Assembly: GCF_032854445.1 (NCBI RefSeq)
Contig: NC_088304.1
Location: 19,567,850-19,631,849, forward strand
Direction of reading: 5' to 3'
DNA: 64,000 bases
DNA from: Liolophura sinensis
Taxonomy: Eukaryota > Mollusca > Polyplacophora > Chitonida > Chitonidae
Positions 9,601-48,723 of the stretch are shown one piece after another (the first letter of the stretch is position 1; the number at the start of each line of letters is the position of its first letter). The position numbers and the translations under genes are program-made. A model generated the notes under the pieces. That model saw only the letters and a list, made by a program, of their open reading frames with translations. It ran no database searches and was not told the DNA's origin.

Positions 9601-12600
9601 CCAAGTTAACCAGAATGCCAGTTTGACTGTACCTGCTACGTATACAGGAAGATATTTGTGCAGGTGTATGTTGAGTGCACACGAACTTTTGTTTCAAAAT
9701 AATATCTTCATTTGTGAACAGGTATAAAAACTGAGGTGAAGGAGGAAGTTGGGGATGGTGACAGTGAACAGAAGAAAGATGAAAAGAAGAAGATAACAGA
9801 GATGATGAAGAAAGAGATTGCTGAATTCAGGGAGGAGAACAAACGACTTCACAATCTGACAACAAAGTTACACCAGAGACATCACGAGACAACACTTAAG
9901 GTTGGTTTGGACTGTTTATTGTGATAACCTGTGGGTGCAGGTTCAAACCTGGCCTTGGACAGAGTATTTGTAAACCTCCCCTGCTCTCTGTTTGTGGGAG
10001 CGCTCATGTGGCAGTTTGTGCAGTCCAATCAATATGGTGTGTATATCTGTGCCTCACACACGGAAAATTTGTGATAACCTGTGGGTGCAGGTTCAAACCT
10101 GGCCTTGGACAGAGTATTTGTAAACCTCCCCTGCTCTCTGTTTGTGGGAGCGCTCATGTGGCAGTTTGTGCAGTCCAATCAATATGGTGTGTATATCTGT
10201 GCCTCACACACAGAAAATTTGTGATAACCTGTGGGTGCAGGTTCAAACCTGGCCTTGGACAGAGTATTTGTAAACCTCCCCTGCTCTCTGTTTGTGGGAG
10301 CGCTCATGTGGCAGTTTGTGCAGTCCAATCAATATGGTGTGTATATCTGTGCCTCACACACGGAAAATTTGTGATAACCTGTGGGTGCAGGTTCAAACCT
10401 GGCCTTGGACAGAGTATTTGTAAACCTCCCCTGCTGTCTGTTTGTGGGAGCGCTCACGTAGCAGTTTGTGCAGTCCAATCAATATAGTGTGTATATCTGT
10501 GCCTCACACACGGAAAATTTGTGATAACCTGTGGGTGCAGGTTCAAACCTGGCCTTGGACAGAGTATTTGTAGACCTCTCCTGCTCTCTGTTTGTGGGAG
10601 CGCTCACGTAGCAGTTTGTGCAGTCCAATCAATATGGTGTGTATATCTGTGCCTCACACACGGAAAATTTGTGATAACCTGTGGGTGCAGGTTCAAACCT
10701 GGCCTTGGACAGAGTATTTGTAAACCTCCCCTGCTCTCTGTTTGTGGGGGTGCTCATGTGGCAGTTTGTGCAGTCCAATCAATATGGTGTGTATATCTGT
10801 GCCTCACACATGGAAAATTTGTCCGTAACTTCTCTGTGGATAACCCTGGGTGCTGAAGTTTCCTCCACAGCATAAAAATGACAACTAGTGTATAAATAAA
10901 AGTCCTTGTGTATGGCTTTGTACATTAAAAGTTAATCAACATTTTCTCATGGAAAATTTAATGAACGGCTTTGTGTTGTGGTCAAAACTTCTACATTTGA
11001 GATCACTAATCTTCTTCCAATGCAGCTACATGTACGTTCGAAGCAGTCTCCCACTGCTGGGCCAGAATGCAGCCCTTTAAGAGTAGATACTCCTGTCTTC
11101 AGCCTGACTAACCAACACTCCACTGAAACACTCCTAATTATGATTCTCTGTCTCTGTTTCCTTTTCCTAGTTATCAGAGCCGTTAGTATATCTGACACAC
11201 TTTTCTTCCCTCAATTTGTCAGATTTGTACGACAGATTAACTTAATAAGCTAACGTGCAAACCAGTAGTTAATATTCAGCACAGATTTGGTTTACCATGT
11301 TTTTTTCCCCCCTCAGTTGTCAGAGCTTCAGGACAAGCTGATGGCTGCAGAGACCGGGCTGGCCGAGGCCAAGAACAAGGTAGAGGAGCTGGAGTATAAC
11401 CTGGAGAACTCCGCCCAGCAGGTGGACAAGTATGACAGACACCTGGCTGATGCCATGCAGAAACTCCACTCGTATGAGGAGTCCACCATCATACAAGTGG
11501 ATGGGAAGAGCATCGCTGGGGTCTCCAAGACCAGGGTGAGTCTGGACTTGATGTTACTGGATCCCCACAGCAACCGGATAACAGTCCTGTAAAAGAACAG
11601 ACAAAATGTTCACAATACAACAACAACAACATGCATATTAGGCCACTGAAAACTGAAGTCTCTCCACCACTCCACTGGCACTCAGACAATGTGTAGAGAT
11701 GTGATGAAAGGGTAGTTTTGATTACTACACTTTTATCATGTCAATTTTCTCCACGTGATTTTATTTGCCAGAAAAAGACAGTCACAATTCACATGATGTC
11801 ATGTGCACGTTGCTATATTGAGAACTTTATGCTGGACGCCATGCGTGGAACTCAGAAGAGTGCAGAAGAGTTTCTTTGAGACTAGCATTATTGATGTTGT
11901 TGTCATAGTTACAGCAGCTGTTGTAGTAAGCTAGCACCGTTTAACTTTACAATCACTCTGAAACAGACAAATAATGTCAGACAGTACATTGTAGTCAAGG
12001 TTAAACAGGTGAACTTGCTCATGTCGTGCTCAGCAACATTTTTTACTTGGTCTCATTTACTTATATGCAGCAGGATAGAATTTGTCAAATTTGCAGAAAG
12101 TTATCTCCCTTTAGTGTAACACCATGAGCTCTTTTGTTAAGTTGAAAAAAAAACAGGCTGAATGCAAATTTGCAATTCTGCAAGACCACCAAGAATGTTG
12201 ACCATGTAAATTTTCATGTTGACTGGCACGCTGGCATTTTGTTATGTGAATGGAGCATGTTAAAAGATGTCAACAATTTCATTGACTGACTGAGTGACAG
12301 ACTGACCAGCTGACAGGCAGAGGGACTTATGGAGGTGCTTGCTGCTGGTAAAATTGGTATTAATTTTAACAACTGTAAGATAGTAATTTTAAAAAAGTGT
12401 TCACACGTATATAGCCAAAAAAAAATAATAAATAAATAATCCCAATTTTTGTGACAGATGCATTATTCGCCAGTAGGCTGAAGTAATATTTTATTCTCAC
12501 CTGTACAGGTAGATGAGATTGTGCATGAGTTGGAGGAGCAGCGAGAATTGGCTCAGACGAGGATGACAGAGCTGGAAAAGCTGCAGATAGATCATCAGGA

Positions 12601-15600
12601 GGCGTGTAAAACTGTGGAGCAGCTCAAACTAGATGTGAGTAGTATCAGTAGCAAGTAATTAGCCAAGTTATTACGGAAACCATTGCCTCTCAATTCATAA
12701 TTTATCAGAAATTCCTGACCTAGAACCTTAGCCAAGGGTCATCACTGAAGAATCAGTGATCTGAACTGAGATACATGTGGCATAGACTGCTCAGTTAGCA
12801 GGAGTTCCAGATCCATCTTTGATAAGAGGGAGAGGATTGGGGTGGTGTGATTTCAACAGTTATTTATTTATTTATTTGATTGGTGTTTTACGTTGTACTC
12901 AAGAATATTTCACTTATACGACGGCGGCCAGCATTATGGTTGGATGAAACCACAGTGATCGCATTGGTGAGAGGCTCCTGGAGTCATTACGCTGCGCTAG
13001 TGTGCTAACCGACTGAGCCACGGAGGCCCCTTCAACAGTTATGTCACCGGAGATATGAGTTCAGTCTCAGATAGAGAATTTTTAAGATTCCCATACTGCG
13101 ATTGTTCCTACTGCTGTCATGGCAATATGGTGTTGACATTGCTCTCTTGTGTAGTATTAATAGAGACCACTTGCCTGCCATAAGTATAACATGTGAGAAA
13201 GTTTACCAGTAACTCGCCTGAGGCCTGTGGTTTATGTTGGGCGCTCAGGATGACTCCAATATGAAACTGGCTACGCAGGTGAAAAATCCTTGCCCCATTA
13301 AAAAACCATCTAATCTATAAAATATATGCAAGTAAATTGTCTAAGATTAATAACATTGCTAATGTGTAATTAATGTAATTTGACGAACACCTTTCTGTCT
13401 GTTTACAGCTGAAAACATTGCCTGAGTCAGTGATCTCTGAGACAACAGAGTACAAGTGCCTTCAATCGCAGTTCTCGGTGTTGTACAATGAGAGCATGCA
13501 TATCCGCACCCAACTTGATGATATGAGGGCGCTGCTTCAGAGCAGTAAAACCTCACACCTACGACAGATAGAGCAGATGGAGGTACGGTTAGGGGGCACT
13601 TGGGTTAAACGAATAGCTACATTAAGGTTCAACTATGGCCGATACCAGTAAAACTGTCAGAAAATATTTTCTCCATAAAATTGAAAATTCTGTGCCAGGT
13701 GCTGCCTGTACAATTGTACATTTATAAATAAATATTTGATTTATTTTATTTGATTGGTATTTTACGCCGTACTCAAGGATATTTCGCTTATACGATGGCG
13801 GCCAGCGTTATGGTGGGAAGAAACTGGGCAGAGCCCAGGGGAGACCCACAACCATCCGCAGGTTGCTGGCTGATCTGCTCATGTACGACTGGAGAGGAAG
13901 CCAGCATGAGCTGTATAAATAAATAAAATGAGTAAATGTTTTAAAAATATTGCTTTTGGTGCTGAAACTTTTCTGGTAGGATAGCACTATACCTAAGCAA
14001 ATCTCAAAGCACAATTCTGTTAACAGATTACTCAGAATCAGGTGAAGTGTTCAAATTAATGGTCATGAGTGAAAGTTTAGGCCATTTACCTTATTTATAT
14101 TTATTCAGGTGTGTAAATATATGTAGCTGTAGATATACATGGAAATGTGTGTAAATGTATAATGTGACAATATGTTGAACGGTCATAAACACTACCAACC
14201 TTTCTATGAGTAGGAGAAAGTGCCTTTTTTTTGATAGCCCGTGTTAAGGTGTCTGAAATCTACATAAGGATCTTTGAACTGTTTTATATTGAAGTTTTAC
14301 CTAATGTTGTAGAGCGACGAGTTGGCAATCCAGAAGCAGATTCGTACGGAGATGATTCAACTGCAGGATACGCTGACCCAAGTGAGGAAGGAGTATGAGA
14401 TGCTGAGGATTGAATTTGAACAGAACCTCACTGCTAATGAGCAAACAGGTGAGGATTGAGTTTGAACAGAACCTCACTGCTAACGAGCAGACAGGTGAGG
14501 AAGGAGTATGAGATGCTGAGGATTGAATTTGAACAGAACCTCACTGCTAACGAGCAAACAGGTGAGGATTGAGTTTGAACAGAACCTCACTGCTAACGAG
14601 CAAACAGGTGAGGATTGAGTTTGAACAGAACCTCACTGCTAACGAGCAGACAGGTGAGAATTGAGTTTGAACAGAACCTCACTGCTAATGAGCAGACAGG
14701 TGAGGAAGGAGTTTGAACAGAACCTCACTGCTAACCAGCAGACAGGTGAGGAAGGAGTTTGAACAGAACCTCACTGCTAACGAGCAGACAGGTGAGGATT
14801 GAGTTTGAACAGAACCTCACTGCTAACCAGCAGACAGGTGAGGAAGGAGTTTGAACAGAACCTCACTGCTAACGAGCAGACAGGTGAGAATTGAGTTTGA
14901 ACAGAACCTCACCGCTAACGAGCAGACAGGTGAGGATTGAGTTTGAACAGAACCTCACTGCTAATGAGCAGACAGGTGAGGAAGGAGTATGAGATGCTGA
15001 GGATTGAATTTGAACAGAACCTCACTGCTAACGAGCAAACAGGTGAGGATTGAGTTTGAACAGAACCTCACTGCTAACCAGCAGACAGATGAGGAAGGAG
15101 TTTGAACAGAACCTCACTGCTAACGAGCAGACAGGTGAGAATTGAGTTTGAACAGAACCTCACTGCTAACGAGCAGACAGGTGAGGATTGAGTTTGAACA
15201 GAACCTCACTGCTAATGAGCAGACAGGTGAGGAAGGAGTATGAGATGCTGAGGATTGAATTTGAACAGAACCTCACTGCTAACGAGCAAACAGGTGAGGA
15301 TTGAGTATAAACAGAACCTCACTGCTAACGAGCAGACAGGTGAGGATTGAGTTTGAACAGAACCTCACTGCTAACGAGCAAACAGGTGAGGATTGAGTTT
15401 GAACAGAACCTCACTGCTAACGAGCAAACAGGTGAGGATTGAGTTTGAACAGAACCTCACTGCTAACGAGCAAACAGGTGAGGATTGAGTTTGAACAGAA
15501 CCTCACTGCTAACCAGCAGACAGGTGAGGATTGAGTTTGAACAGAACCTCACTGCTAACGAGCAAACAGGTGAGGATTGAGTTTGAACAGAACCTCACTG

Positions 15601-18600
15601 CTAACGAGCTTACAGGTGAGGACTGAGTTTAAACAGAACCTGTCTGCTAATGAGCAAACAGGTCAGCATTAAGTTTGAACAAAACATGACTTAATGCAGC
15701 CCCAAAATAGACCATTCATGTGGAAAGAAAACTTAGTGTACTTAGTTATACGGAGAGCTTTATATGTTTGTTATCAAAGGGCCACATCTGATATGGTGTG
15801 TCCGTGTTGTCATTGAGTCTTGTTTATGTTGTCCGTGAGTCTTATATTCTCAGCAAGCGTTATGTGTCTGCAGTCTTATAAGTCTTACTTCTGTTGTATG
15901 ATAGAGCCCTATCTCTTTGTAGTGGTTGAGTCGTGTCAGTGTGTTATGAATGAGTCAGATCGATATAATGTTTGTTATCGCCGACTCACGTGTGTTCGCA
16001 GGCCAGAGGTAGTCACATCTGTATAATTGATAAGTGATATCTAGTGTAATGAGGTTGTCATACATGAATGTTTGTTTGTGTGTTCGCAGGCCAGAGGTAG
16101 TCACATCTGTATAATTGATAAGTGATATCTAGTGTAATGAGGTTGTCATACATGAATGTTTGTTTGTGTGTTCGCAGGCCAGAGGTAGTCACATCTGTAT
16201 GATCGACAAGTGATATCTGGTGTAATGAGGTTGTCATACATGAATGTTTGTTTGTGTGTTCGCAGGCCAGATGTAGTCACATCTGTATGATCGACAAGTG
16301 ATATCTGGTGTAATGAGGTTGTCATACATGAATGTTTGTTATCGCCGACTCTTATGTGTTTGCAGGCCAGAGGTAGTCACATCTGTATAATTGACAAGTG
16401 ATATCTGGTGTAATGAGGTTGTCATACATGAATGTTTGTTTGTGTGTTTGCAGGCCAGAGGTAGTCACATCTGTATAATTGATAAGTGATATCTAGTGTA
16501 ATGAGGTTGTCATACATAAATGTTTGATCGTGTGTTTGCATGCCAGAGGTAGTCACATCTGTATAATTGATAAGTGATATCTAGTGTAATGAGGTTGTCA
16601 TACATAAATGTTTGATCGTGTGTTTGCAGGCCAGAGGTAGTCACATCTGTATTATTGACAAGTGATACCTAGTGTAATGAGGTTGTCATACATGAATGTT
16701 TGTTTGTGTGTTCGCTGGCCAGAGGTAGTCACATCTGTATTATTGACAAGTGGCATCTGGTGTAATGAGGTTGTCATACATGAATGTTTGTTATCGCCGA
16801 CTCATGTGTATTTGCAGGCCAGAGGTAGTCACATCTGTATAATTGATAAGTGATATCTAGTGTAATGAGGTTGTCATACATAAATGTTTGATCGTGTGTT
16901 TGCAGGCCAGAGGTAGTCACATCTGTATAATTGACAAGTGATATCTACTGTAATGAGGTTGTCATACATGAATGTTTGTTATCGCCGACTCACGTGTGTT
17001 TGCAGGCCAGAGGTAGTCACATCTGTATTATTGATAGGTGATATCTAGTGTAATGAGGTTGTCATACATAAATGTTTGATCGTGTGTTTGTTGGCCAGAG
17101 GTAGTCACATCTGTATAATTGATAGGTGATATCTAGTGTAATGAGGTTGTCATACATAAATGTTTGATCGTGTGTTTGCTGGCCAGAGGTAGTCACACCT
17201 GTATTATTGACAAGTGATACCTGGTGTAATGAGGTTGTCATACATGAATGTTTGTTATCGCCGACTCACGTGTGTTTGCAGGCCAGAGGTAGTCACATCT
17301 TTATGATCGACAAGTGATATCTGGTGTAATGAGGTTGTCATACATAAATGTTTGTTTGTGTGTTCGCAGGACCGATCAACCGTGAGATGAGGAACCTGAT
17401 TCAGAGCTTACAGAACCATAATCAGCAGCTGAAGAAGGAAGTGAGCCGCTCCAAGCACCGGTTGAAGGAGGCTCAGACAGAGATAACCAAGGTACAGCAC
17501 CGCACTGGCGTTGGTGTTTGTCATAGAGTCCGCTGGTTTTGTGTGATGGAGAGATGCTGTTTTCATTATTAGTCCCCTGTCAGCAGTATAGCAGATGGAG
17601 AGATGCTGTTGTCATTATTAGTCCCCTGTCAGCAATATAGCAGATAGAGAGATGCTGTTGTCATTATTAGTCCCCTGTCAGCAATATAGTAGATGGAGAG
17701 ATGCTGTTGTCATTATTAGTCCCCTGTCAGCAATATAGCAGGTGCAGAGATGCTGTTGTCATTATTAGTCCCCTGTCAGCAATATAGTAGATGGAGAGAT
17801 GCTGTTGTCATTATTAGTCCCCTGTCAGCAATATAGCAGGTGGAGAGATGCTGTTGTCATTATTAGTCCCCTGTCAGCAATATAGCAGGTGGAGAGATGC
17901 TGTTGTCATTATTAGTCCCCTGTCAGCAATATAGCAGGTGGAGAGATGCTGTTGTCATTATTAGTCCCCTGTCAGCAATATAGCAGATGGAGAGATGCTG
18001 TTGTCATTATTAGTCCCCTGTCAGCAATATAGCAGATAGAGAGATGCTGTTGTCATTATTAGTCCCCTGTCAGCAATATAGTAGGTGGAGAGATGCTGTT
18101 GTCATTATTAGTCCCCTGTCAGCAATATAGCAGGTGGAGAGATGCTGTTGTCATTATTAGTCCCCTGTCAGCAATATAGCAGATAGAGAGATGCAGTATA
18201 GGAGACAGTTCATCACATTGAATTGAATCCTGTACCTTGGGTTCACCTTGGCGAGTTATTGATCAAGTTCAAGTTTTAGGTTTTGTCCGATTTCAACAAA
18301 GAACTGAAGTTTGGTTGGTACCAGTGTGTGGCTTGCACAGGACAAGTTTCAGTTTTCAGAACAATTTCTGTTTTTTTGTTCATTTCTGAACTTTGATATG
18401 ACTATTATTCAAACCAGTAAGGGACCATGTGTTTGGAAAACAACTCACTTCTGGAAGGCTTGTTCAACATTTCTGTGATAAATATCTCAAGTAAGGCATG
18501 AAACATTTATAATACAACAGTGTAAGCTCGGCCCAACATCTGCTGATGGCTGAAATGTGAAAATTTGAGGGTAAAAGGAATGTTTTACCGTTATTCTGAT

Positions 18601-21600
18601 GTTGTCATTGGTCTTCATGTACAGTGTAATGAATTTCAACTTGTGTGTGCTTGTAGTTAAAAGCTGAGGGAGCCACGACCGAAGGGAAGGACGATGTGAG
18701 CCAGCCAACAACGGCTCCTAAGGTGGAGGAGGCAGTAGTGATCAAGAAAGAGGAGGAGGAGCGCGAGGAGGTGGAGGTGCGGGAGAAGGGCAAGACAGAC
18801 GCAGACATCATCAAGGATCTCAAGTCACAGTTCAAGTAAGTCAGCAGGGTGTAATCTCAAGAGTTCAAGTAAGTCAGCAGGGTGTAATGTCAAGAGTTCA
18901 AGTAAGTCAGCAGGGTGTAATGTCAAGAGTTCAAGTAAGTCAGCAGGGTGTAATGTCAAGAGTTCAAGTAAATAACAATAACGTGTGTGAAGTCACGTGC
19001 AACTTGCATATGTAAATCATGTGGATGACTTGTCAAAGCCTTGAAAGTACTTGAAAGTACTTGAAAAGGAGTAGATTTAGAAAAAGAAAAAAACCATTGA
19101 AGTGCTAGATTTTCATTTTTCAGATATCTCGATGATGTATGTACTAAATCACCCGATTCATAAACCAGTGAAGTAAATCTGGTATTTAATCCCCACATGA
19201 AAATGTCAGCCAGATCTGAGAGGTTTGAAAGTACATGTACTGGAAAACATATGTAATGGAGGCCTTTGAAAAGCAAAATTGAAAATTGGTGTTTAATTTT
19301 GAATTTTGAATTTAGGAAAAGTATGTGGTATAGACTAATCTTTATTGATGGGTGGGACCCTCTTCAAATTGAGACTGCCTTGTTTCTGTATGACACTGTA
19401 ATAAACTCATCAAGTGTGACTTTGTGAGCAGTGTTTAAATCCCATGAAGACTCACAGACAAACCTATAGACATGTATGTTTTCTCTGGTATTCACAGGAA
19501 AGCTCAGGATTCTCAGAAAGAACTGAAGCTGTTACTAGACATGTATAAAAGTGCTCCTAAAGAACAAAAGGACAAAGTTCAGGTAAGTTTCCTTGTCCAG
19601 GGCTTCTCATGTGGTTCAGCCCTTGCATTCTGTGACAGTTGAAGGGAAGGGCCATTACCCAATCACAAGCCGAAATCTGGCTGTCACTAGTTTGGCTGAG
19701 ACATAACGTTAGGAGGTTTATCAGGTACCTGCCAAAGGTCGGTGGTTTTCTCCAGGCACTCCAGTTTCCCCCACCCATAAACCCGGTGGCTGACGTGAAA
19801 AATTATTTATGTCGGTTTCATCAATGCTATAAATATATTCTGACATTGTAATCTGTGTAATAAACTTACAGCACTACATGTGCATGCGAATCCTGGGTGT
19901 TAAAACACACTTAATTCATGTTTGTTGAAAGGAATACTTGTATAAAGGGTTAATAGTTGTGGGCTTTTTCCCGCACCTTTCCCACCAAGAAATAAAATCA
20001 CTTCAAATCACTGATGGGAAGCACAAGCACTCACATATTCAAGAAAAACTAAATCTGTGTTTGAACAATTTGCACAGGAATACATGGTATTGTGTGAATC
20101 ATCAGTAAATTGAATTTAAGATGTTATGTTTTGTCCGTAGTTGATGGCAGCCGAGAAGAAGGCCAAACAAGAAATAGAGGATCTAAAGAATGTGATTCGC
20201 AAGATGCAGGAAGCCGAACGGAAGGAGAAGAGAAAGTTAGCTGATGAGGATGCGATAAGGAAAATCAAAAAGTTAGAAGAAACCATCATAGAACTACAGA
20301 AGAACTTGGCTGCTCAAAAACAGGTGGGTTATGTCACATGTGGCACAGTTTGTCAGTTTTTCACTTCTCATAAGTGAAATATCCTTCAGCATAGCACTGA
20401 ACGCCAATTAGTGAAATCAAATGAAGTCCACAGAACAGTTTCAGAGCCTTAAGACAAGTACTGTAAAATGCATCGTTTTAATATGCTTTTGCACTTTTTA
20501 CCCCTAGAATCAAACGTTTGATTGAAGGTGCGTATTATACAGTAGGATATAAGTCGACTGATTTATTTCCATCACAGGTGTAACTTACGTCGTACCCTGA
20601 GCGTCAGCGTCCAAAAATAAAGAAAGCAATGTTAAACAAAATGTTAGGGGTGGTATCTCAGAAAGTACTGCAGGTATTGAGGGTTTACACACATGTAGAG
20701 CAGAATAGCACAAGGGAGATGTTCTATCGTTGGGTGGATGTATGCATATTCAGTACCATAAATTACTGAATAGTTGACTTAGTGTAATGTGTGTAAGAAT
20801 CAATGTTAAACAAAATGTTAGGGGTGGTATCTCAAAAAGTACCACATGTATTGAGCTCCGTGTTCGCACACATGTAGAGCAGACTAGCGCAAGGGGGATG
20901 TTCCATCATTGATACGGTGTGTACATATGAAGGACTGTAAATTACCATAACTGTAAATCACTGTTAAACAGAATGTTAGGGGTGGTATCTCAAAAAGTAC
21001 TGCAGGTATTGAGGTTTTACACACATGTAGAGCAGAATAACACGAGGGAGATGTTCCATCGTTGGGTGGATGTATGCATATTCAGTACCATAAATTACTG
21101 AATAGTTGACTTAGTGTAATGTGTGTAAGAATCAATGTTAAACAAAATGTTAGGGGTGGTATCTCAAAAAGTACCACATGTATTGAGCTCCGTGTTCGCA
21201 CACATGTAGAGCAGACTAGTGCAAGGGGGATGTTCCATCATTGATACGGTGTGTACATATGAAGGACTGTAAATTACCATAACTGTAAATCACTGTTAAA
21301 CAGAATGTTAGGGGTGGTATCTCAAAAAGTACTGCAGGTATTGAGGTTTTACACACATGTAGAGCAGAATAGCACGAGGGGGATGTTCCATCGTTGGGTG
21401 GATGTGTGCATATGAAGGACTGTAAATTACTGTAACTGTAAATCAGTGTTAAACAAAATGTTAGGGTTGGTATCTTAAAATACATTTGTATGTATTGACC
21501 TGAAGTTTTACATGCATATAAAGCACAATGGTGCAAGAGGGATGTTCCATCGCTGATGCTCTATGGGCATATTAATTACAGTAAATTACCAAATTCACAA

Positions 21601-26074: not shown

Positions 26075-26280
26075 GTAACCTACCTGTGAGAAGCACTGGA
26101 GCTCTGCATTGGTCTTTTATGGATGTCTCGAACATATATGTTGCATGATTAAGATATTTGTGTTGCAGCAGTCGAACTGTCCTCATGCCTGATTGGGAAT
26201 AAATTTTACGCGGTCTTACATGAAGTTTGTGTACCTTCCATACACCAGTACTAATACACTAATATGGCCTACACATTGAA

Positions 26281-27325
26281 TTGACTTTGCTGGTGGAAAT
26301 GTGTGTAACACAAGTGGGAAAGTCTGTCAGTTACATGCCAAGTCATGTCAGTGGTTTTTGCTGGTGGAAATGTGTGCATCACGAGTGGGAAAGTCTGTCA
26401 GTTACATGCCAAGTCATGTCAGTGGTTTTTGCTGGTGGAAATGTGTGCATCACAAGTGGGAGAGTCTGTCAGTTACATGCCAAGTCATGTCAGTGGTTTT
26501 TGCTGGTGGAAATGTGTGCATCACGAGCGGGAAAGTCTGTCAGTTACATGCCAAGTCATGTCAGTGGTTTTTGCTGGTGGAAATGTGTGCATCACGAGCG
26601 GGAAAGGTCTGTCAGTTACATGCCAAGTCATGTCAGTGGTTTTTTGCTGGTGGAAATGTGTGCATCACAAGTGGGAAAGTCTGTCAGTTACATGCCAAGT
26701 CATGTCAGTGGTTTTTGCTGGTGGAAATGTGTGCATCACAAGTGGGAAAGTCTGTCATTTACATGCCGAGTCATGTCAGTGGTTTTTGCTGGTGGAAATG
26801 TGTGCATCACAAGTGGGAAAGTCTGTCAGTTACATGCCAAGTCATGTCAGTGGTTTTTTGCTGGTGGAAATGTGTGCATCACAAGTGGGAAAGTCTATCA
26901 GTTACATGCCAAGTCATGTCAGTGGTTTTTGCTGGTGGAAATGTGTGCATCACAAGTGGGAAAGTCTGTCAGTTACATGCCAAGTCATGTCAGTGGTTTT
27001 TGCTGGTGGAAAATGTGTGCATCACAAGTGGGAAAGTCTATCAGTTACATGCCAAGTCATGTCAGTGGTTTTTGCTGGTGGAAATGTGTGCATCACAAGT
27101 GGGAAAGTCCTGTCAGTTACATGCCAAGTCATGTCAGTGGTTTTTGCTGGTGGAAATGTGTGCATCACAAGTGGGAATGTCTGTCAGTTACATGCCAAGT
27201 CATGTCAGTGGTTTTTGCTGGTGGAAATGTGTGCATCACGAGTGGGAAAGTCTATCAGTTACATGCCAAGTCATGTCAGTGGTTTTTGCTGGTGGAAATG
27301 TGGTGCATCACAAGTGGGAAAGTCT
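26281..27325 (+). repeat. 70-bp minisatellite running into the assembly gap
   Basis: About 15 units contain TTTTGCTGGTGGAAATGTGT, then GCATCACAAGTGGGAAAGTC and TGTCAGTTACATGCC. Single-base length changes shift the phase between units. The array is cut by the gap, so its true size is unknown. Confidence 0.93.
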
Positions 27326-27525
27326 NNNNNNNNNNNNNNNNNNNNNNNNNNNNNNNNNNNNNNNNNNNNNNNNNNNNNNNNNNNNNNNNNNNNNNNNNNN
27401 NNNNNNNNNNNNNNNNNNNNNNNNNNNNNNNNNNNNNNNNNNNNNNNNNNNNNNNNNNNNNNNNNNNNNNNNNNNNNNNNNNNNNNNNNNNNNNNNNNNN
27501 NNNNNNNNNNNNNNNNNNNNNNNNN
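27326..27525. other. Assembly gap (200 N)
   Basis: A run of exactly 200 N sits inside or at the end of the 70-bp array. Such round numbers usually mean unknown length. The missing RNF20 RING exon is expected around here. Confidence 0.98.
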
Positions 27526-28129
27526 CTGTACCAAAAACAATCGATCACAACTGCACAAATTCACAAACTAAATACATTTCTAGACACTACACCCAGTTTG
27601 GACGCCATCTAGTTCTGATAGTCGTACCTACAAGTTATGTGATTGATGTGAGTCCGGAAAAAAATATAAGGTTGTTTAAGGGCGATAATATAGTGGCATG
27701 AGGCAAGTCTAGTCGCCCATTTGGCTAGTTCACTTCCCCTGTCGTCAGATGACGCGTCAGTCTCGCTTGTTCTTGCATGTGATCAAAATAGATACAGACA
27801 ACTTACGGCCACAGTGCATGTAGTGTGTGAAAATGTATTTATTTTGTGAATTGTGCCATTGTCATGGATCGTTTTTGGTTCTGTAACGCTCAGAACAGGT
27901 TAGTTGAAGATGCGGTAAATGTGGCATGCCGTCGATCCAACACATCAGAAGCAGTTATTTCCAGTAACTCCCCCAACACTTCTTGCTGGTCGATACAGAG
28001 AATTACACTCCGCAATTAGTCTTGGCCTCTGATTTGTGATGTTTGGACTGCATGGTTATGATGTTTACAGCTGATCACCTGTAGTGACTGGTTGTGACGT
28101 TTGAAGTGATCATAATTTTACAGTTGATT
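27526..28129 (+). other. Unassigned sequence after the gap
   Basis: No RING-type Cys/His pattern is present in any frame I read. An ATG at 27864 starts MDRFWFCNAQN before a GTTAGT donor at 27899. It might be the start exon of the tetraspan gene downstream, but a join to that gene is not supported in phase. Confidence 0.3.
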
Positions 28130-29617
28130 CAATGTGTTAACAGGTTTGTCATGTTTCTGCTGGTTGTGCTCTTACACCTTTGTCAACGGGTTTGTCATGT
28201 TTACATTGGTTGTCATGTTGACAGTTTACACAGTTTTCCTGTGTGACATGATGATGTTTATGCTAGTTGTGATGTTATTGCTGGTTGTGATGTTATTGCT
28301 GGTTGTGATGTTTGTGGTGTTTGTAATGGTTGTGAAGTTTATCCTGGTTGAGATGTTCATGCTGGTTGTGATGTTTGTGCTGGTGGTGATGGTCGTGCTG
28401 GTTGTTATGTTTATGCTGGTTGTCATGTTTGCCTTGGTTTGTCTTGTGTGCCTTGGTTTGTCTTGTGTGCCTTGGTTTGTTTGTTTTTTTGCCTTTGTTT
28501 GTATTGTTTATGCTGGTTGTGATGATGGCCTGGCCTGTGAAGTTTATACTGGTTTTCATTTTTAGCTCGATTTGACATGTTTGTTGTGATTTACGGCTGA
28601 TCACCTGTGTCAACCATTTTGTCATGTTTATGCTGATTGCTTTAACTAGTGTGTGTTTACCAAGGTTGGTCATGGTTACACAGGTTGTCATGTTTCACAG
28701 TTTAACAGTGTGATGTGATGATTTTTGTGCTTGTTCTCATGTTTGTGCTGGATTTGATGTTTACCTTGGTTTGTCATATTTACATGTACATTGGTTGTGA
28801 TATTTACAGCTAATCACCTGTGTATGTAGAGCTTAGATGTTTGTACTGGTTGTAATGTTTACCCTGGTTGTGATGTTTTTAGCTAATCACCTATGTATGT
28901 GGAGCTTAGTTGTATGTACTGGTTGTGATGTTTGCAGTTATTCACCTGTGTATGTGGAGCTTAGCTGTTTGTACTGGTTGTGATGTTTGGGCTGGTTGTG
29001 ACGCTTGTAGCTGATCACCTGTGTATTATTATATGTATATAGAGCTAAGATGTTTGTACTGCTTTTGATGTTTACACTGTTGTCATGTTTACAACTAATC
29101 ACCTGTGTATGTGGAGGTTAGATGTTTGTACTGGTTGTGATGTTTGTGCTGGCTGTGATGATTATGCTGTTTGTGATGTTTATGCTGGTTGTGATGTTTA
29201 TGCTGGTTGTATAATGTTTATGCTGATTGTGTGATGTTTTCAGGTAATCACATGTGTACCATTATGGGGAGGTCAGATGTTTGTACTGGTTGTGATGTTT
29301 ATGCTGGTTGTGTGATGTTTCGCTAATCACCTGTGTATCATTATGGGGAGCTCAGATGGTTGTAAAGATTGTGATATTTACCCTGGTTGTGATATTTACC
29401 CTGGTTGTGATGTTTACCCTGGTTGTGATATTTACCCTGGTTGTCATGTTTACCCTGGTTGTCATGTTTACCCTGGTTTCTCATGGTTACAGCTAATCTT
29501 CTGTGTATCATTATGGGGAGGTCAGATGTTTGTAAAGGTTGTGATATTTACCCTGGTTTGCGATGTTGACCCTGGTTGTGATGTTTACACTGGTTGTGAT
29601 GTTTCAGCTAATCACCT
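28130..29617 (+). repeat. Degenerate GGTTGTGATGTTT-type tandem region
   Basis: Short units such as TGCTGGTTGTGATGTTTA recur. Longer repeats of about 100-200 bp contain TTCAGCTAATCACCTGTGTA and a TATGTGGAGCTTAGATG segment. The array runs right up to the first tetraspan exon. Open frames in it (V/L/M-rich on plus, N/T/I-rich on minus) are by-products of the repeat. Confidence 0.85.
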
Positions 29618-32700: not shown

Positions 32701-35700
32701 TTTTGAAGCCCTGAGTTGTGTGAGTCAGACATGTGATGATATATCCATATACTTAATTTTTAAGCTATGCGCTGTTTGAACCATGAGCTGTGTGATGCTG
32801 TATTCACATTTTCACTTCCTGTTACCTGCTCAGGTGTAACATCTCATGAGCACAAACACTGTTCTGTATTACAACATGTACAGTACATCTATGGTTAAGG
32901 TATGCTGTGTATCATGAGAACAGGCCGCTATGCTACCTGTCAACTGGGGAGCCTCCACGGCCGAGCAGGTAGCAGGCCAGTGCGGCACAATGACTCAGGA
33001 GCCTCTCACCAATGCGGTTACGGTGAAACCAGCGATTTGTGGTGGGTTTCTCATCTGGCCCTACCCGATTTCCTCCCACCTAAATGGTGGGCGCTGTCAT
33101 ATAGGTGAAATACTCTTGAGTGCAGCGTAAAACACCAGTCAAATAGATAAGTAAGAGACATTCTGTGATACACTATTTTCAAGCAATCTGTTACAAAAGC
33201 ATGTTATGTGCATGTACATGTATGTGTGTGTTAAGGCTTTTTTTTATTATTGTAAATTATTACATGCTGTTACTTACTTTATAGAAAGTTAGACTCTGAT
33301 GCTCATATTGTATTTGGTGGGAATGAAAAAGGTGACCTATGTGTACATATGTACATACTGAATGTTTGGTGAAATGCATGCCTTTCAGATGTTAGGTCAC
33401 TTAAGGTGCAGGTTCAAATCCAGCCCTGGACAGGGGATTCATTGATTCTCCTACTTTCACTATTTGCAGACAAATCTTGTGTGACTGTTTGCAAGATAAC
33501 ATTTGTGAAAGACCGTTTGTTTACCTCGAACATTCTGATTTATTCCACCCATATATATGTAATTGACAGCCATCGCATACCCTAGTTTTTCTACTTATTA
33601 GGACAGATATTAGTAGTGTTGAAAGTAGTATTTATACTTAACCAGCCTTTTAGAAAAGTGAAGATATGAGCATGTTGTGCATTAGATGGTCTAACCATGT
33701 GAGAAATATGAAATTCAATATTCCTGCTACAATTACATGTAAATTGGCTAAAATTAGCAGACCAGGTCTCACAAAAATTAGAAATAGGGAGATGTATTTA
33801 ACCAGAAGTTTAGCATCATTGTTTAGCATCATCAAGTGTGACACTTCACGAACATAATTGGGATTGATTCATCCGCTATTAATAGATGGCCTTTTCAGAG
33901 TTCGTTGTGAAGTGGGATGACTAGTATTTTCTTCTGAGAAAAACTCAGAAAAGTGGTAGCTTCAAAAGTATTATTTTAAGGCCTTTTGTCCTTTAGAAAG
34001 TTAATTTTTAAATACCAACCTTCAGGTAAAATATAGAAAAGGTATGCACTTGCCTTTTAATCACTGAAACACATGAGGTGTGGGCGCAAAACGGGCCTTG
34101 GATGGGGTAGATTTCCCCGTAGTTACTGCTTGTGGGGCCTAAGTGATCAGCGATGATCGTATAACTGTTTGCACAGTTGAGGGACACTTGTCTGTCACCA
34201 ATATGGTGTGCGTATCTGTATGTCACATGTGGCAAAGTGCATCAGTAAGTTACCAAAGGTCTGTGGTTTTCCCTGGTCACTACTTTTTGCTTCACCCTTA
34301 ATACTGAATACCATTGTGAAACTGAAACATTCTTGAGTATGGAGTTAAATTACAATCAAATATGACCACACCACTTTGACATTGGCTGTCCAGTCACAAA
34401 ATGAAGGTCAATGGGGTACAGTTTTCATTAAAGAGGCTCCCTTTGATTTTGTAGAATGAGTTTAAGCAGTATTAGCTAGGCCTAATATATTCAGTGTTTA
34501 TTTCCTGGGTTTAATATGTACTTATCATCTAATCATTCATCCAGATGTACTCACCATCTCATCATTCATCCAGATGTACTCACCATCTCATCATTCATCC
34601 AGATGTACTCACCATCTCATCATTCATCCAGATGTACTCACCATCTCATCTCAAAGGATTCCTTTGTCATCATATGACTGAAAAATTGCTAAGTACGACG
34701 TTAAACCCCATGCACTCACTCATCGTCTCCTTATTCATCCAGATGTATTCATGTCTAAACCATGGTGTGTAAGAAACAGTTTGTTGTTGTTACAGAATGG
34801 CTGGATGCAGTTCGAGCGTTCGCTATCCTTTCCCTGCTCCTGTGTTTTGTGGCCACGTGTTTCCGTGTGGCAGGATGGATCCGGCTAGATGACGGAGTGC
34901 CAGTGTTCAAACTTGTGGCCGGCATTTTCATGGCTTGTGCAAGTGAGTTTTATGTACATATAGGCCTGTGTGATCGTCTTGTGTGTGAGAGGTGAAAGTT
35001 AGTAGGCCTGTCAGTAAATCACCAATAATTTCATGGAATTTTTCACCCTCTGTGCTAAGTTCGTGAAAAATCACATGAAATTTGATGTTTTAGAGCTAAT
35101 CTGTATTTTGTACATGGAAAAGTTTGTAGTCAGCTTGGCAGAGCTCTGGTTTTCTCTTGCCACGAAAGCTGACTGCCTTATTATTCTGGTGAAAAAATTT
35201 TTGGCAATAGACATTCTATCAGTCGGTCAGTCATACCCTGTAAAGGTCAGGTCCTGACCATGTGTTTAAGACGCTTTTCTTGTAGTTGATGTTCTGCTTC
35301 AATAACAGCCTCGCGAAGCCTTGTTTCTCATGACGCAGTTTCAGACCTATGATATTTCGGGCTTGCAGATGGGTACAGAATCAACACTTACTGACTGAGT
35401 CAAAGCAGTCACCATTTACCAAAAATTTAGCTCAAGTTAGCAATATTCTGGATCCCTTTAAATACATGCTGTTTCATGAAGAGCTAGATGGGGGCCTCCA
35501 TGGCTGAGGTGGTTAGCACACCACTCCAGCACAGTGACCCATGGACTTCTCACCAATGTGGTCACTGTTGAGCTCATGCTGTCTTGTTCTCTGACTGTAC
35601 GTGAGAAGGTCTGCCAGCAACCTGCGGATGGGTGTGGCTTTCCCCTAGACTCTGCTCAATTTTCTCGAACCAGTATGCTGGCAGCTGTCGTATAAGTGAA

Positions 35701-38798: not shown

Positions 38799-38814
38799 AT
38801 GCTACATGTAAATT

Positions 38815-39797
38815 GCTTATCAACCACAGGTACTTCTTTACTTATGAACCACATTTACTTCTTTGCTTATGAACTGCAGGTACTTCTTTGCTTATCAACC
38901 ACAGATACTTCTTTGCTTATGAATCACAGGTACTTCTTTGCTTATCAACCACAGATACTTCTTTGCTTATCAACCACAGATACTTCTTTGCTTATGAATC
39001 ACAGGTACTTCTTTGCTTATTAACCACAGGTACTTCTTTGCTTATGAATCACAGGTACTTCTTTACTTATGAACCACAGATACTTCTTTGCTTATGAATC
39101 ACAGGTGCTTCTTTGCTTATCAACCACAGGTACGTCTTTGCTTATCAGCCACAGGTACTTCTTTACTTATGAACCACATTTACTTCTTTGCGTATGAATC
39201 ACAGGTACTTCTTTGCTTATGAACCACAGATACTTCTTTGCTTATGAACCACAGGTACGTCTTTGCTTATCAGCCACAGGTACTTCTTTACTTATGAACC
39301 ACATTTACTTCTTTGTGTATGAATCACAGGTACTTCTTTGCTTATGAACTGCAGGTACTTCTTTGCTTATCAACCACAGATACTTCTTTGCTTATGAATC
39401 ACAGGTGCTTCTTTGCTTATCAACCACAGATACTTCTTTGCTTATGAATCACAGGTACTTCTTTACTTATGAACCACAGATACTTCTTTGCTTATGAATC
39501 ACAGGTGCTTCTTTGCTTATCAACCACAGGTACTTCTTTGCTTATGAATCACAGGTATTTCTTTGCTTATGAACCACATTTACTTCTTTGCTTATGAATC
39601 ACAGGTACTTCTTTGCTTATGAACTGCAGGTACTTCTTTGCTTATGAACCACAGATACTTCTTTGCTTATGAATCACAGGTGCTTCTTTGCTTATCAACC
39701 ACAGATACTTCTGTGCTTATGAATCACAGGTACTTCTTTGCTTATTAACCACAGGTACTTCTTTGCTTATGAACCACAGGTACTTCTTTGCTTTACG
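38815..39797 (+). repeat. 25-bp minisatellite, about 39 copies
   Basis: The unit is ACTTCTTTGCTTATGAATCA followed by CAGGT, with CAACCACAG and GAACCACAG variants. Many copies contain AACCACA (RUNX-like), and the CTTATC variants contain a GATA-type site. Confidence 0.93.
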
Positions 39798-42750: not shown

Positions 42751-42824
42751 TTAATGCAGAGTGTTCCCCTCTCTGATCTGAAAGTATTGTGGTGTGTAAT
42801 TTCAGCGTACTGTAAATCTTCAGG

Positions 42825-44110
42825 TATGAATTACTGAGGGTGAACTTACTTTGACAATTATGAATTACTGAGGTTTGACTCACTATGACAGATATGAATT
42901 ACTGAGGGTGAACTCACCATGACAGGTATGAATTACTGAGGAGGATCTCACCATGACAGGTATGAATTACTGAGGGTGATCTCACCATGACAGATATGAA
43001 TTACTGAGGGTGAACTCACCATGACAGGTATGAATTACTGAGGAGGGTCTCACCATGACAGGTATGAATTACTGAGGGTGATCTCACCATGACAGATATG
43101 AATTACTGAGGAGGATCTCACCATGACAATTATGAATTACTGAGGTTTGACTCATTTTGACGGGTATGAATTACTGAGGGTGAACTCACTATGACAGGTA
43201 TGAATTACTGAGGAGGATCTCACCATGACAGATATGAATTACTGAGGAGGATCTCACCATGACAATTATGAATTACTGAGGGTGAACTCACTATGACAGG
43301 TAGGCCTATGAATAACTGAGGGTGAACTCACTCTGACAGGTATGAATAACTGAGGGTGAACTCACCATGACAGGTATGAATAACTGAGGGTGAACTCACC
43401 ATGACAAGTATGAAGTACTGAGGGTGAACTCACTATGACAGGTATGAATAACTGAGGGTGAACTCACCACGACAAGTATGAAGTACTGAGGGTGAACTCA
43501 CTATGACAGGTATGAATTACTGAGGGTGAACTCACTATGACAGGTATGAATTACTGAGGGTGAACTCACCATGACAATAATGAAGTACTGAGGGTGAACT
43601 CACCATGACAGGTATGAATTACTGAGGGTGAACTCACTATGACAGGTATGAATAACTGAGGGTGAACTCACCATGACAAGTATGAAGTACTGAGGGTGAA
43701 CTCACCATGACAGGTATGAATTACTGAGGGTGAACTCACTATGACAGGTATGAATTACTGAGGGTGAACTCACCATGACAGGTATAAATTACTGAGAGTG
43801 AGCTCACTATGACAGGTATGAATTACTGAGGGTGGACTCACTATGACAGGTATGAATTGCTGAGGGTGAACTCACCATGACAAGTATGAAGTACTGAGGG
43901 TGAACTGACTGTGACAGGTATGAATTACTGAGGGTGAACTCACTATGACAGGTAGGCCTATGAATAACTGAGGGTGAACTCACTCTGACAGGTATGAATA
44001 ACTGAGGGTGAACTCACTATGATAGGTATGAGGTACTGAGGGTCAACTCACTGTGACAGGTATGAATTACTGGGGGTGAACTCGGTATAACATTTATGAA
44101 GTACAGGGGA
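42825..44110 (+). repeat. 34-bp minisatellite, about 37 copies
   Basis: The unit is TATGAATTACTGAGGGTGAA followed by CTCACCATGACAGG. The core GGTGAACTCACC is a perfect two-sided palindrome apart from its middle AC. Variants (AAGTACTG, AATAACTG) are spread in blocks, suggesting segmental amplification. Confidence 0.93.
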
Positions 44111-44684
44111 TGTACTCGGTGTGGCAAGTACAAATTAACAAGGAATGTTGACTAAAAATATTACTGCTTGATTCAGTACTGAATCCATGATCATTGTATA
44201 CACGGTAATTAATATAATAATTTCATACCAGTAGAACTACCATTATTTTTACAAGCCACTGAGAAAATGTTGATATCAAGTCTGTTGTCAGGAGTCAGGT
44301 CTCATACATGTACATAAAAGCTTACAATAATGATAATAAATCTTTATTTGAGGAAGGTAACATGTGTTTTGCATGTTAAACTCAACCCGCTCTTGAACTG
44401 AACTGCCTTCTTGACATAAAATTCCATGGATAATTCCATGAAAATAACTATTCTAGGTTTATATATAATCGCCAACAGTTATCTAGTTATCAAAAAAAAA
44501 ATTGCAGTATTGAAAAATTGCCACTATAATGCTGAGAAATGCATTTGTTTAAATCCAGTGGCTTTGAGACATGTTCCATCTGCTTAGAACAAGTTCATTT
44601 TGTGACCTCAACAGTGAAAGGTCATTTTGTGACCTCAACACTGACTACAGGTGAGCTACTCGCCGGCCACTGACTTAGAGATGT

Positions 44685-45137
44685 GGACACAGACCCCCAT
44701 TACAACTTGCGTTTTTCAGTAGGGACGATTGTAGTTCTGTGTATTTTAGGGTGTAAAGTCTTTTTTTGCTGCCAGCCTGCCGTTTTTAGTGTACAAGTGC
44801 ATGCTTGGTATGAAAATGATGGAAATTGTCTAAGCTTTGCGCAGGTATGAGTTTTAATGGTGAAAGTTTGAAATTCTGGGCGAGAGGACACAAGGAGACA
44901 GGTGGTGACGAGGCTGCGAGTGACGTCCCCTTGGCGTTGCTAGGCACCCCTCCCAGCTGCCGGCATGTAAAGGTCCAGATTTTTCCAGTCAACCTATGTC
45001 AAGATTTTTACAGCTTCTTTCTCTCAGGCTGGGCCAGGTATGCACCAAAGCTTATTGGCCTCGGAATGTTTGGGACTGAGCTACAGCGCTAAACGTTAAC
45101 ATTGTCGCTTATGGAAAACTAATGGGGGTCTGTGGCC
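44685..45137. mobile_element. 453-bp non-autonomous DNA transposon (MITE), copy 1
   Basis: The ends are inverted: GGACACAGACCCCCATTA at the left and TAATGGGGGTCTGTGGCC at the right, one mismatch in 18. Its twin at 47586-48038 has the same length and differs at about six bases. I cannot identify a target-site duplication. An 88-codon open frame is present in both copies, but most differences between copies change amino acids, so it is not evidently coding. Confidence 0.8.
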
Positions 45138-47585
45138 TGATCTGTCCACTTGTGCCAAAACATGTAATATGTCACTGTGTGCTCAGATTTGGCAACAGCC
45201 TGATAATATTTGGTGGGTACATCTGCGATGTGGTTTGCATTGACATGGAACTTGATTGAGCAGTTTTAAAGCTTTTTAATTCTATATTTTCCCCACATAT
45301 CCATTTTGTCTAAAAATGGGCTAAAGCGCTCTGTGGTCAAGGGTAGTACAGGAGTATAAACAGACTGGACCAAACACAGACAATGTTTCATTGTTCCTGG
45401 TTTTTAAAATGTCTCTTTTGGGGCTGACATTTGATAAATAATGCAAAATTTGAGTGCTGCGAGTGAAATTGGAGTATGTGGCTGATAGATAGGGTGGTGT
45501 GATTAAGGATGGTCAATAAGGCCTTGCATCACATATAAGGGCCCAGCCTCACACAGGTGGATAAAAACACATCAGCAGATTAATTTACTTGGCTAGAGTA
45601 GTAGAGAGGGCCAGTGTGCATTTAATTTACAAACCAAGTCAGGTTCCTCCCATGTGTGCCACCACACACTAGGTAAATGTGCTTCAAATCATCCTGCAGG
45701 TCACAAAACATGAAAAACAGGCATCTCTGCTGGAACACTGTCTGCTGTTTTGGGCATAGACTTGAAGTGGACAAGGTAAATTTTCCTCTTTAAACTTAAA
45801 AATAAACCACTGTAGGCATGTAGTTTTCATTGCATGTGTATATTCATTCCTCTGACAAGTTACATGTGCACTCACACAGTATGTGTGGCGTTGGAACAAA
45901 AATGATCAATTTCAAGTTTCTAGCATACATGTGAGTGTGATCTGTTGGAATATTGCCCTTGTGAAAATGAGTCTCTGCCCCACCAGGTGTCTGTTTTTCC
46001 ACCAGAACATAGTACGCTGTTCCTGCGACATCTCAAGGAGTTTTTGTTTTAGTATGTGGCCCAGTGTGGCATCCACCTCCCTGGGCAACTGGGATTTTTT
46101 TTATGTTTCCAATGTCCTCACACACAAGTTAGAAATTAGACAGCTACATATGTCTTTCACATCCTAGTTTAATACCTATTGAGCTTTTGTCTTGGTTTCC
46201 CTCTTTAGATCTTGTCTCCCAAACATGGCGTCAGTGAACTTTGCCTGGTTTATGCATATATTGAACTGGGATCTACCTAGGTGAGTGGGGTCTGCTAGCC
46301 GTTCAGCTTCCTCAAAGGCCTGACCATTCGGATGCAGTCTTCGACTCCTTTGGCCGACCTAGAATCCCCGTCATTGGTCCGGTACTACACCATGACACAT
46401 ACCCCTCCGGCCCCCCCACCCCCCCAACCGGGGAAACGTCACAGGTTTCTCATATATGTACAGACAGTTTGAATGTCCATTCCTCATGCCCACCCAGCAA
46501 CACCCAGTGTGGAACCTGATTACGGATGTAATTTCTCACTGATTATTTGAGGATTTCTGTGTTGTTACAGGTTAAAAAGTATAGCTTTTCCCCTCTTCTT
46601 GGGTCCCTTCAACATGTCTTGGGAGGGTTGCCTTGCTGACTGTCTGAATGACCAATGTGCATGTACTGTGTGGCTTTATTTTTGTAAGTGGCAAATTCAT
46701 ATTTCTCCCCTCTACTTATCTCTTGTAGATGCCAGTGTCACACTTTGGTGTTTGTTATGTGGAAAGTACTAATTTAGTCTGAGGCAACAACACAGGTGGT
46801 GGGATTCTTTTGCACTGTGAGTTGAGGTAAGCCAGCCAACCAATGGCAGCCATGGGGGAGACGGGAAAGGGGGGTAGTGTGTGTGTGGGGGGGGGGGAGT
46901 GGGTGATCTTTTAAAGGGTTTTATCATGTGAATCACTATGTAAAAGGGATACTAGTCTTTTCTTTAGCCCTATCCATGGAAACTGTGCCTATGAGCATTT
47001 CTATATCAATTTGGATGCATACGTTTACTTTGATGGTGATCAAAATGTACTTTTCTGGAATTTTGAAACTCCGCTTTGCTACCCACCTGTATCACTTTAA
47101 GTCAAATTTTGCACAAAGTTGCTAAAAGGTATGTCCTATATTTGCTAAGTGAATTGTCAGATAAATTACCTGTCTTTTGATATATATTTTGACACTTTTG
47201 GCTTTTAAGTATTTTCTTAACACTGCTGTAAACAAGAAAATCTACTTGAAAATCCATAATTTTCTAAATGTTTGTCAATGGAAAATGTAAAATACTTTGT
47301 CATTGGAATTTTTTCATTTTTCTTGCAGATATACATACCAGCTTTCCAAAACATTTGACCTGGTTAAGATATTTTGAAGGGTATGTGCACTACAGAGCTT
47401 TGAACTTGGTGCTTGAGGACGGACAAACAGACACATTTCCAAGATAGGGGTACCCCAAGTTAAATTCCTCCTACTGAAAAGTTTTTGCATGTATCAAGCT
47501 GTAACTTTATGTGTGAGGTTTAGAGGTAGTAAGCATTATGTGGTGCAAAAATGATTGATTTTAAAAAAAGTTGGCTGGTGTGATA
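45138..47585 (+). other. Spacer between the twin elements, no gene recognised
   Basis: No exon, SINE or array is supported. C-rich (46408-46436) and G-rich (46889-46899) tracts are present. Confidence 0.4.
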
Positions 47586-48038
47586 GGACACAGACCCCCA
47601 TTACAACTTGCGTTTTTCAGTAGGGACGATTGTAGTTCTGTGTATTTTAGGGTGTAAAGTCTTTTTTTGCTGCCAGCCTGCCGTTTTTAGTGTACAAGTG
47701 CATGCTTGGTATGAAAATGATGGAAATTGTCTAAGCTTTGCGCAGGTATGAGTTTTAATGGTGAAAGTTTGAAATTCTGGGCGAGAGGACACAAGGAGAC
47801 AGGTGGTGATGAGGCTGCGAGTGACGTCCCCTTGGCGTTGCTAAGCACCCCTCCCAGCTGCCGACATGTAAAGGTCCAGATTTTGACGGTCAACCTATGT
47901 CAAGATTTTTACAGCTTCTTTCTCTCAGGCTGGGCCAGGTATGCACCAAAGCTTATTGGCCTCGGAATGTTTGGGACTGAGCTACAGCGCTAAACGTTAA
48001 CATTGTCGCTTATGGAAAACTAATGGGGGTCTGTGGCC
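47586..48038. mobile_element. 453-bp non-autonomous DNA transposon (MITE), copy 2
   Basis: Orientation, length and inverted ends are the same as in copy 1 at 44685-45137, with about 98.7 percent identity by eye. It ends about 370 bp before the SNRPD3 start codon, so it abuts that promoter. Confidence 0.8.
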
Positions 48039-48209: not shown

Positions 48210-48410
48210 GTTTCGACCAATCAAGCACTAGCGCTTATTCACCCCGACGAGGCGCTATCGTTTTGTTGACGTTGGCCGCCATTTTCAAAACACGGGTGAG
48301 CAGTCAACACGGAAGACCTGTAGAATCCAACGAAAATCCGGAGCATCCGCCCATCTTACGCGGAAATAAGACTTTAAAGTTTCATTTTAGAAACTGATGC
48401 GCACGTGAAG
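48210..48410 (+). promoter_or_regulatory. SNRPD3 promoter and leader
   Basis: A CCAAT box at 48217 (CGACCAATCA) precedes GCCGCCATTTT at 48275, a reverse YY1-like site. A relatively GC-rich leader follows to the ATG. This layout is usual for housekeeping genes. No start site is directly visible. Confidence 0.45.
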
Positions 48411-48723
48411 ATGTCGATTGGGGTACCAATTAAGGTTCTTCACGAAGCGGAGGGCCATGTTATTACATGTGAGACAACAATGGGGGAAGTGTACCGGGGG
48501 AAGCTGGTGGAAGCGGAGGACAACATGAACTGCCAGATGTCTAACATAACAGTAACGTATAGGGATGGCCGAGTGGCACAGCTAGAGAATGTTTACATCC
48601 GAGGTAGCAAAATTCGATTTTTGATTTTACCAGACATGTTGAAAAATGCACCGATGTTCAAAAAGATTCAAGGGAAAGGAGGCGGAGCTGGTCGTGGGAA
48701 ATCGGCCATTCTTAGAGCACAAG
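48411..48723 (+). CDS. SNRPD3: SNRPD3 exon 1
   Basis: There are 104 codons plus one base, covering the whole Sm fold and the start of the basic tail ([12 protein letters not shown]). Confidence 0.97.

Follow-up and report, generated by a model that had tools for sequence, protein, structure and literature searches.

A 64,000-nt stretch of the genome of the chiton Liolophura sinensis (RefSeq assembly GCF_032854445.1, contig NC_088304.1, forward-strand positions 19,567,850 to 19,631,849; hereafter the window, to which coordinates refer) was found to carry on its plus strand an RNF20/BRE1 gene, in which the end of coding exon 9 and the adjoining 5′ splice site are repeated in tandem into intron 9. 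An open model of 17 coding exons, without the last exon(s), produced a joined translation of 909 residues matching BRE1B (E = 6.7e-222) and BRE1A (E = 6.1e-196) in the PDB, which bears out the gene name proposed in the initial annotation, made from the letters of the stretch alone. The translation also matched mollusc Bre1 proteins, and in a quick tree built with 35 of 120 listed relatives it was placed outside cephalopods, gastropods and bivalves yet grouped with them (Shimodaira–Hasegawa-like approximate likelihood ratio test, SH-aLRT, 96 and 98), as expected of a chiton. The parts of the model discussed below are coding exons 9 (14313..14448, 136 nt), 10 (17370..17491) and 11 (18657..18835), and intron 9 (14449-17369, 2,921 nt). 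In the PDB alignment the protein encoded by exon 9 was nearly identical to BRE1B; a Pfam search with exon 9 gave a single match, far under the cut-off, and one with the truncated RNF20 protein gave no match.

The model ends in EEIKEYK, near window positions 26075-29600. When the last 70 residues of four relatives were aligned to the window by tblastn, only their first 12 residues were matched, at the end of the model, and no RING finger was found in the window. A 71-bp array (26286-27325) abuts a 200-N gap (27326-27525) at this place, and the last RNF20 exon(s) therefore probably lie within the gap.

A minisatellite of splice donors in intron 9

Head-to-tail copies of the 67-nt end of exon 9 (14382-14448, the source of the array) and of the donor following it occupy 14382-15685. 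Splitting the array at each ACAG|RT boundary gave 26 boundaries, one of them being the genuine end of the exon at 14448, directly followed by the true 5′ splice site CAG|GTGAGG (14449..14454); the remaining 25 are copies within the intronic part of the minisatellite (14449..15685), 24 of them with GT. The boundary dinucleotide was thus GT in 25 of 26 cases and AT in one, and CAG|GTGAG followed by G or A was present at 24 of 26. The 9-mer CAGGTGAGG occurred at 21 boundaries (the true donor and 20 copies) and nowhere outside the array on either strand of the window, while the other boundaries carried CAGGTGAGA (three), CAGGTCAGC (one, at the far edge) and CAGATGAGG (one). Units, cut without indels, were 46 bp (22 units) or 67 bp long (four, one of which is the exon's own end). 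The initial annotation had described a minisatellite of 46- and 67-bp units made from an exon end and its 5′ splice site, with about 25 near-identical donors, and this description holds; its statement that nearly every unit offers exactly the context of the true donor was too strong, the two contexts in question being found at 17 of 26 boundaries (GAGCAAACAG|GTGAGG at nine, GAGCAGACAG|GTGAGG at eight).

The best copy reproduced 66 of the 67 nt of the exon end (score 64), compared with scores of 2–7 for control segments ending 60–105 nt upstream of the junction. Some copies match the 67 nt upstream of the donor in all but one base, and the downstream context is nearly the same. In an ungapped comparison of 113 nt around the junction, in which 46-bp units lose register upstream, the three best copies shared 110 or 111 positions with the true donor and the rest 70–93. 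A genome search with the array sequence, which skips very common words, returned one place only. Unit types b, a′, a, 67 and a followed in the same order at units 9–13 and 14–18 of the one assembled haplotype, a pattern that fits past unequal exchange.

Positions of the donor 9-mer were not specially conserved among the units: 32 percent of random nine-column sets varied as little, and selection on the donor copies was rejected on this ground. A coding constraint on the copies was considered and likewise set aside, since the most frequent variants are silent when read in the frame of the exon but without a significant excess (P = 0.15 and 0.16; P = 0.07 after removal of edge units and one recombinant type).

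Further arrays at RNF20 junctions

Two junction arrays in addition to that of the initial annotation were identified. The first, on the plus strand at 15990..17369, consists of 15 copies of 88 or 100 bp running up to the true acceptor of intron 9; its unit is made of the last nucleotides of the intron plus a G, its last repeat is the real acceptor, and AG is intact in 11 of 15 copies. Exon 10 sequence was not recognisable in this unit (local alignment no better than shuffles, P = 0.85). The second, also on the plus strand, lies at the end of exon 11 (18829..18971) and has a 33-bp unit of 7 exon nt plus GTAAGT, adding three GTAAGT donors and one GTAAAT.

Seven array sequences from RNF20 were compared with all junctions of the gene, using 300 shuffles as a null. 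The three arrays described above best matched their own adjacent junctions (scores 37, 21 and 17 versus null maxima of 10, 11 and 11), the acceptor-copy array finding its own acceptor. The other four scored 10–12; two of them, in intron 5 (10 versus 9) and intron 10 (12 versus 10), stood just above the null, both by matches to distant junctions. Arrays in introns 5, 10 and 13 (9919-10822, 17545-18194 and 20623-21480) overlap no junction, and two of them begin 18 and 53 nt past a donor.

Frame consequences of alternative splice sites

The true donor is the only one of the 26 boundaries that keeps the reading frame. Whichever of the 25 alternative boundaries is used, reading past the true donor gives T-G-E-D-stop, with the TGA at 14457, just as the initial annotation had stated in holding that only the first donor preserves the protein. 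Each of the 11 alternative AG acceptors likewise brings in a stop, 3 codons on. Combining an alternative donor with an alternative acceptor is unproductive as well, because the TGA precedes every later donor; of the 300 pairs that 25 GT donors can form with 12 AG acceptors, the true sites being counted in both, one is productive. Used in succession, the donors would extend exon 9 from 136 nt to 182, 249, 295 and 341 nt and, through further steps, to as much as 1,349 nt.

That each of the 25 alternative boundaries and each of the 11 alternative AG acceptors brings in a premature stop is what would be expected of a poison splicing element, in which some transcripts use later donors or earlier acceptors, gain a stop and are destroyed, with array length tuning RNF20 output. 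The near-identity of the donors over short distances would also suit such a role. We nevertheless regard it as unlikely, given that donor positions are not unusually conserved, that lancelet repeats of similar build appear harmless to splicing (PMC3087553, PMC3902484), and that in two of ten further chiton genes described below the array stays open for 58 and 92 codons past the first donor, so that a quick stop is not the rule of the class. The earlier suggestion that use of later donors may lower RNF20 output found no support.

The same build in other genes of the genome

Three CAGGTGAGT motifs spaced 15–45 nt apart were matched 673 times in the genome, compared with 28 matches for the reversed motif. 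All distinct arrays in 100 of these 673 rows and in 100 of the 264 rows obtained with CAGGTAAGT were collected, giving a sample of 14 and 15 arrays (L032–L060), and for either edge of each array, upstream and downstream, the two longest open stretches were searched against the PDB at E values up to 0.01. A match was present at the upstream edge of at least 9 of 29 arrays, a lower bound since 60 of 75 matches were listed for one search, and at the downstream edge of 1 of 29 (sign test p = 0.008, Fisher test p = 0.012). Two of the arrays, L056 and L060, have a similar unit and are of doubtful independence, and the second open stretch of L045 had no PDB match.

Upstream matches were to OGDH (E = 3.1e-19), ABCC (E = 6.4e-16), a helicase-like protein (E = 1.7e-15) which we take to be Mot1/BTAF1, fucosidase (E = 9.8e-9), RPC1 (E = 4.4e-7), a Fe-hydrogenase-like protein (E = 1.5e-6, the alignment running ~16 residues beyond the exon end), SPT3 (E = 1.7e-5), SMAD2/3 (L058, E = 1.7e-26) and alpha-glucosidase (L052, by a maltase-glucoamylase match, E = 6.3e-22). 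The single downstream match was SMAD again, as its array nearly fills the intron. A TRPM gene (L039), whose first-donor exon was searched apart (E = 2.1e-7) and is outside the count of the uniform edge test, brings to 10 of 29 the sampled arrays whose start lies at the end of a coding exon that could be recognised by its relation to a solved structure.

When the first donor of each array was taken to mark the exon end, 21–49 nt of that end recurred in the array in eight of these ten genes, the longest being OGDH (39 of 49 identical), while upstream controls scored 2–6. Later AG|GTRAG donors numbered from 4 (ABCC) to 74 (TRPM) per gene. A stop followed the first donor within 14 codons in eight of ten genes, the two others being fucosidase (58 codons) and alpha-glucosidase (92 codons). 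Judging from these sequences, the build is present in at least eleven genes of this genome, RNF20 included.

Three of the sampled loci had features of their own. In the TRPM gene (L039, 929-7085) an array of ~6 kb, with its 74 AG|GTRAG sites, follows one exon. The SMAD2/3 array (L058, 4021-4876 on the sense strand) is a donor-copy array of 31-bp units, and the next SMAD exon matches ~100 nt past it. The alpha-glucosidase array (L052, 3937-4666 on the sense strand) repeats the exon end in 39-bp units, a multiple of three, and it is this array that remains open for 92 codons; use of later donors there would extend the protein in steps of 13 residues.

Rows of this kind could also be read as a functional platform recruiting U1 small nuclear ribonucleoprotein, thereby aiding transcription or blocking early polyadenylation. 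The 24 GT copies within 1.2 kb of RNF20 and the similar rows elsewhere, with up to 74 AG|GTRAG sites, would be in keeping with such a platform, but the lack of special conservation in the donor columns speaks against it, and we hold it to be highly improbable.

Origin of the array

The two unit lengths can be traced to exon 9 itself. TGAGG occurs in the exon at 14383..14387 and again at 14404..14408 on the plus strand, and a third time in the donor, at 14450. The spacings of the exonic strings from the donor string, 67 and 46 nt, equal the two unit lengths, which suggests two kinds of slip between exonic and donor TGAGG. The near-identity of the exon 9 protein to BRE1B marks the exon as the source and the array as the copy.

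We consider it probable that the donor array of RNF20 intron 9 is a mirage minisatellite of the type named in lancelets, born by duplication at microhomologies, enlarged by unequal exchange, and tolerated because the exon-proximal donor continues to be chosen. The mechanism of duplication and the outcome of splicing are inferred from sequence. Were an exonic TGAGG to mispair with that of the donor, exon end and donor would be duplicated as one piece; the array would afterwards be enlarged by unequal exchange, and the acceptor of this intron would have seeded an array of its own. Being intronic, the copies would be removed with the intron as long as the acceptor at 14312 is paired with the nearest donor, a rule that might reflect exon definition or a first-transcribed, first-used order. 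As the 113-nt surroundings of the true donor and its best copies are near-identical, correct choice would have to depend on position (an exon of 136 nt versus one of at least 182), on the order of transcription, or on the first 69 nt of exon 9, roughly half of it.

Several observations weigh against this reading. No clear mark separates the true donor from its best copies within 113 nt, where up to 111 positions are identical. The exon 11 array copies only 7 nt of exon end, compared with 2–4 in controls, and contact of RNF20 arrays with junctions (three of seven) is not significant against random placement (P = 0.078). Among the sampled arrays, 19 of 29 have no recognisable exon at their start, and only 6 nt (fucosidase) and 5 nt (SMAD) of exon end recur in two of the ten genes, no or little better than controls. 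The count of CAGGTAAGT was only weakly above that of the reversed control (264 versus 158), and given this weak excess beside the strong one for CAGGTGAGT, the argument from genome counts is mixed; the matches also clump in large arrays.

A different origin would be the birth of an intron by tandem duplication of an exon piece (the Rogers model), the donor being a reused exonic GTGAGG and the array a young intron. In the 67-bp copies, exonic GTGAGG (codons Val-Arg) is indeed set right behind ACAG, so that a donor arises from coding sequence, and a potato case with a cryptic donor activated likewise is described (PMC4974935). This model would derive both splice sites from one exon piece; in a comparison that left 15686-15989 aside no such common source was seen, the acceptor array showing no match to the end of exon 9 above shuffles and exon 10 no similarity to the acceptor unit. 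We think such a birth very unlikely.

Copies inserted or multiplied by the assembler would mimic an array of this kind, and tandem arrays did trouble this assembly, as seen where the neighbouring 71-bp array runs into the 200-N gap. The HiFi reads behind the assembly, however, had a mean length of 8,347 bp at 14-fold coverage (PMC11068029), exceed the 2,921-nt intron on average and so can span it. The units moreover carry a varied and ordered set of variants, and the build recurs in other genes. An artefact is thus hardly credible, even though the exact copy number may be off.

Other repeats in the window

Two arrays, at 42821-44104 (34-bp units, ~37 copies) and 38813-39793 (25-bp units, ~39 copies), lie away from any exon seen and carry CAG|GTATGA and CAG|GTACTT, respectively, in many units. 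A minus-strand donor in the array at 34516-34650 was considered and dropped, an open exon following on the plus strand. Two ~450-bp sequences that hardly differ from each other and have inverted ends (CAGACCCCCATTA...TAATGGGGGTCTG) occupy 44680-45125 and 47585-48036 and, by eye, look like a pair of small DNA transposons. An open frame at 48408-48724 reads like a spliceosomal protein, presumably SmD3.

Wider meaning and comparison with known systems

It is conceivable, though we would not expect it, that exon ends are a general seed of minisatellites and that perhaps hundreds of introns carry splice-site ladders, read under an exon-proximal rule or serving as a length-tuned brake; the figure of hundreds is an extrapolation, the first 50 Mb of contig 1 having yielded 14 listed arrays for a single motif. 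If true, the chiton spliceosome would face rows of identical decoys genome-wide. To our knowledge, choice among equal donors has mostly been studied in built minigenes holding few donors, and our literature search gave no case of competing identical donors. RNF20 offers a natural donor ladder, most steps of which have almost identical sequence on either side, and junction counts from RNA at ladders of this sort would tell apart limits on exon length, first-come choice and a preference for the 3′-proximal donor.

No mollusc or chiton mirage was found in the titles and abstracts that the literature search listed, outside which most subscription journals lie, and a term search of chiton genome papers did not find the word minisatellite. 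A human minisatellite which, by title, "provides multiple splice donor sites" resembles the RNF20 array, as far as the title tells, in offering several donors; its unit is reportedly ~12 nt. Together with the lancelet repeats considered next, it stands against the initial view that no such case had been described.

Fission yeast SPOG_01682 and the potato RdRp gene are given as introns gained by tandem duplication of exon pieces bearing AGGT, with a cryptic donor activated in the potato case (PMC4974935). RNF20 shares with these Rogers-model cases the tandem duplication of an exon piece, but its intron was lengthened and no new intron is shown.

The kind of repeat described here is already known from lancelets, whose mirages share its build. 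Mirages are tandem repeats that extend across exon–intron boundaries of, among others, Adh3 and the globin genes. The 5′ boundary can be affected as well as the 3′, AG/GT is retained in many of the units, and array length differs among haplotypes and even within the soma (PMC3087553). Troponin C is cited as a further mirage, with similar duplications in PGBD5 (PMC3902484), and reverse-transcription PCR suggests normal splicing (PMC3087553, PMC3902484). The RNF20 arrays agree with what these sources give for Adh3, BflGb6, BflGb9 and troponin C: units span the exon–intron boundary, the array beginning inside exon 9; many but not all keep the splice signal (GT in 24 of 25 donor copies, AG in 11 of 15 acceptor copies); either boundary may be involved; and the arrays are intronic, bordering genuine and intact exons (conserved exons 9 and 10 of the open model). 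Unlike the lancelet cases, they occur in a mollusc and at both ends of one intron, their unit lengths are traced to two exonic microhomologies, and 24 GT donor copies are present, compared with the 3 and 6 units given for the two BflGb6 haplotypes (PMC3087553). With a mollusc case, and the same build in eleven genes of its genome, mirages look less like a peculiarity of lancelets and more like a general route of intron growth.

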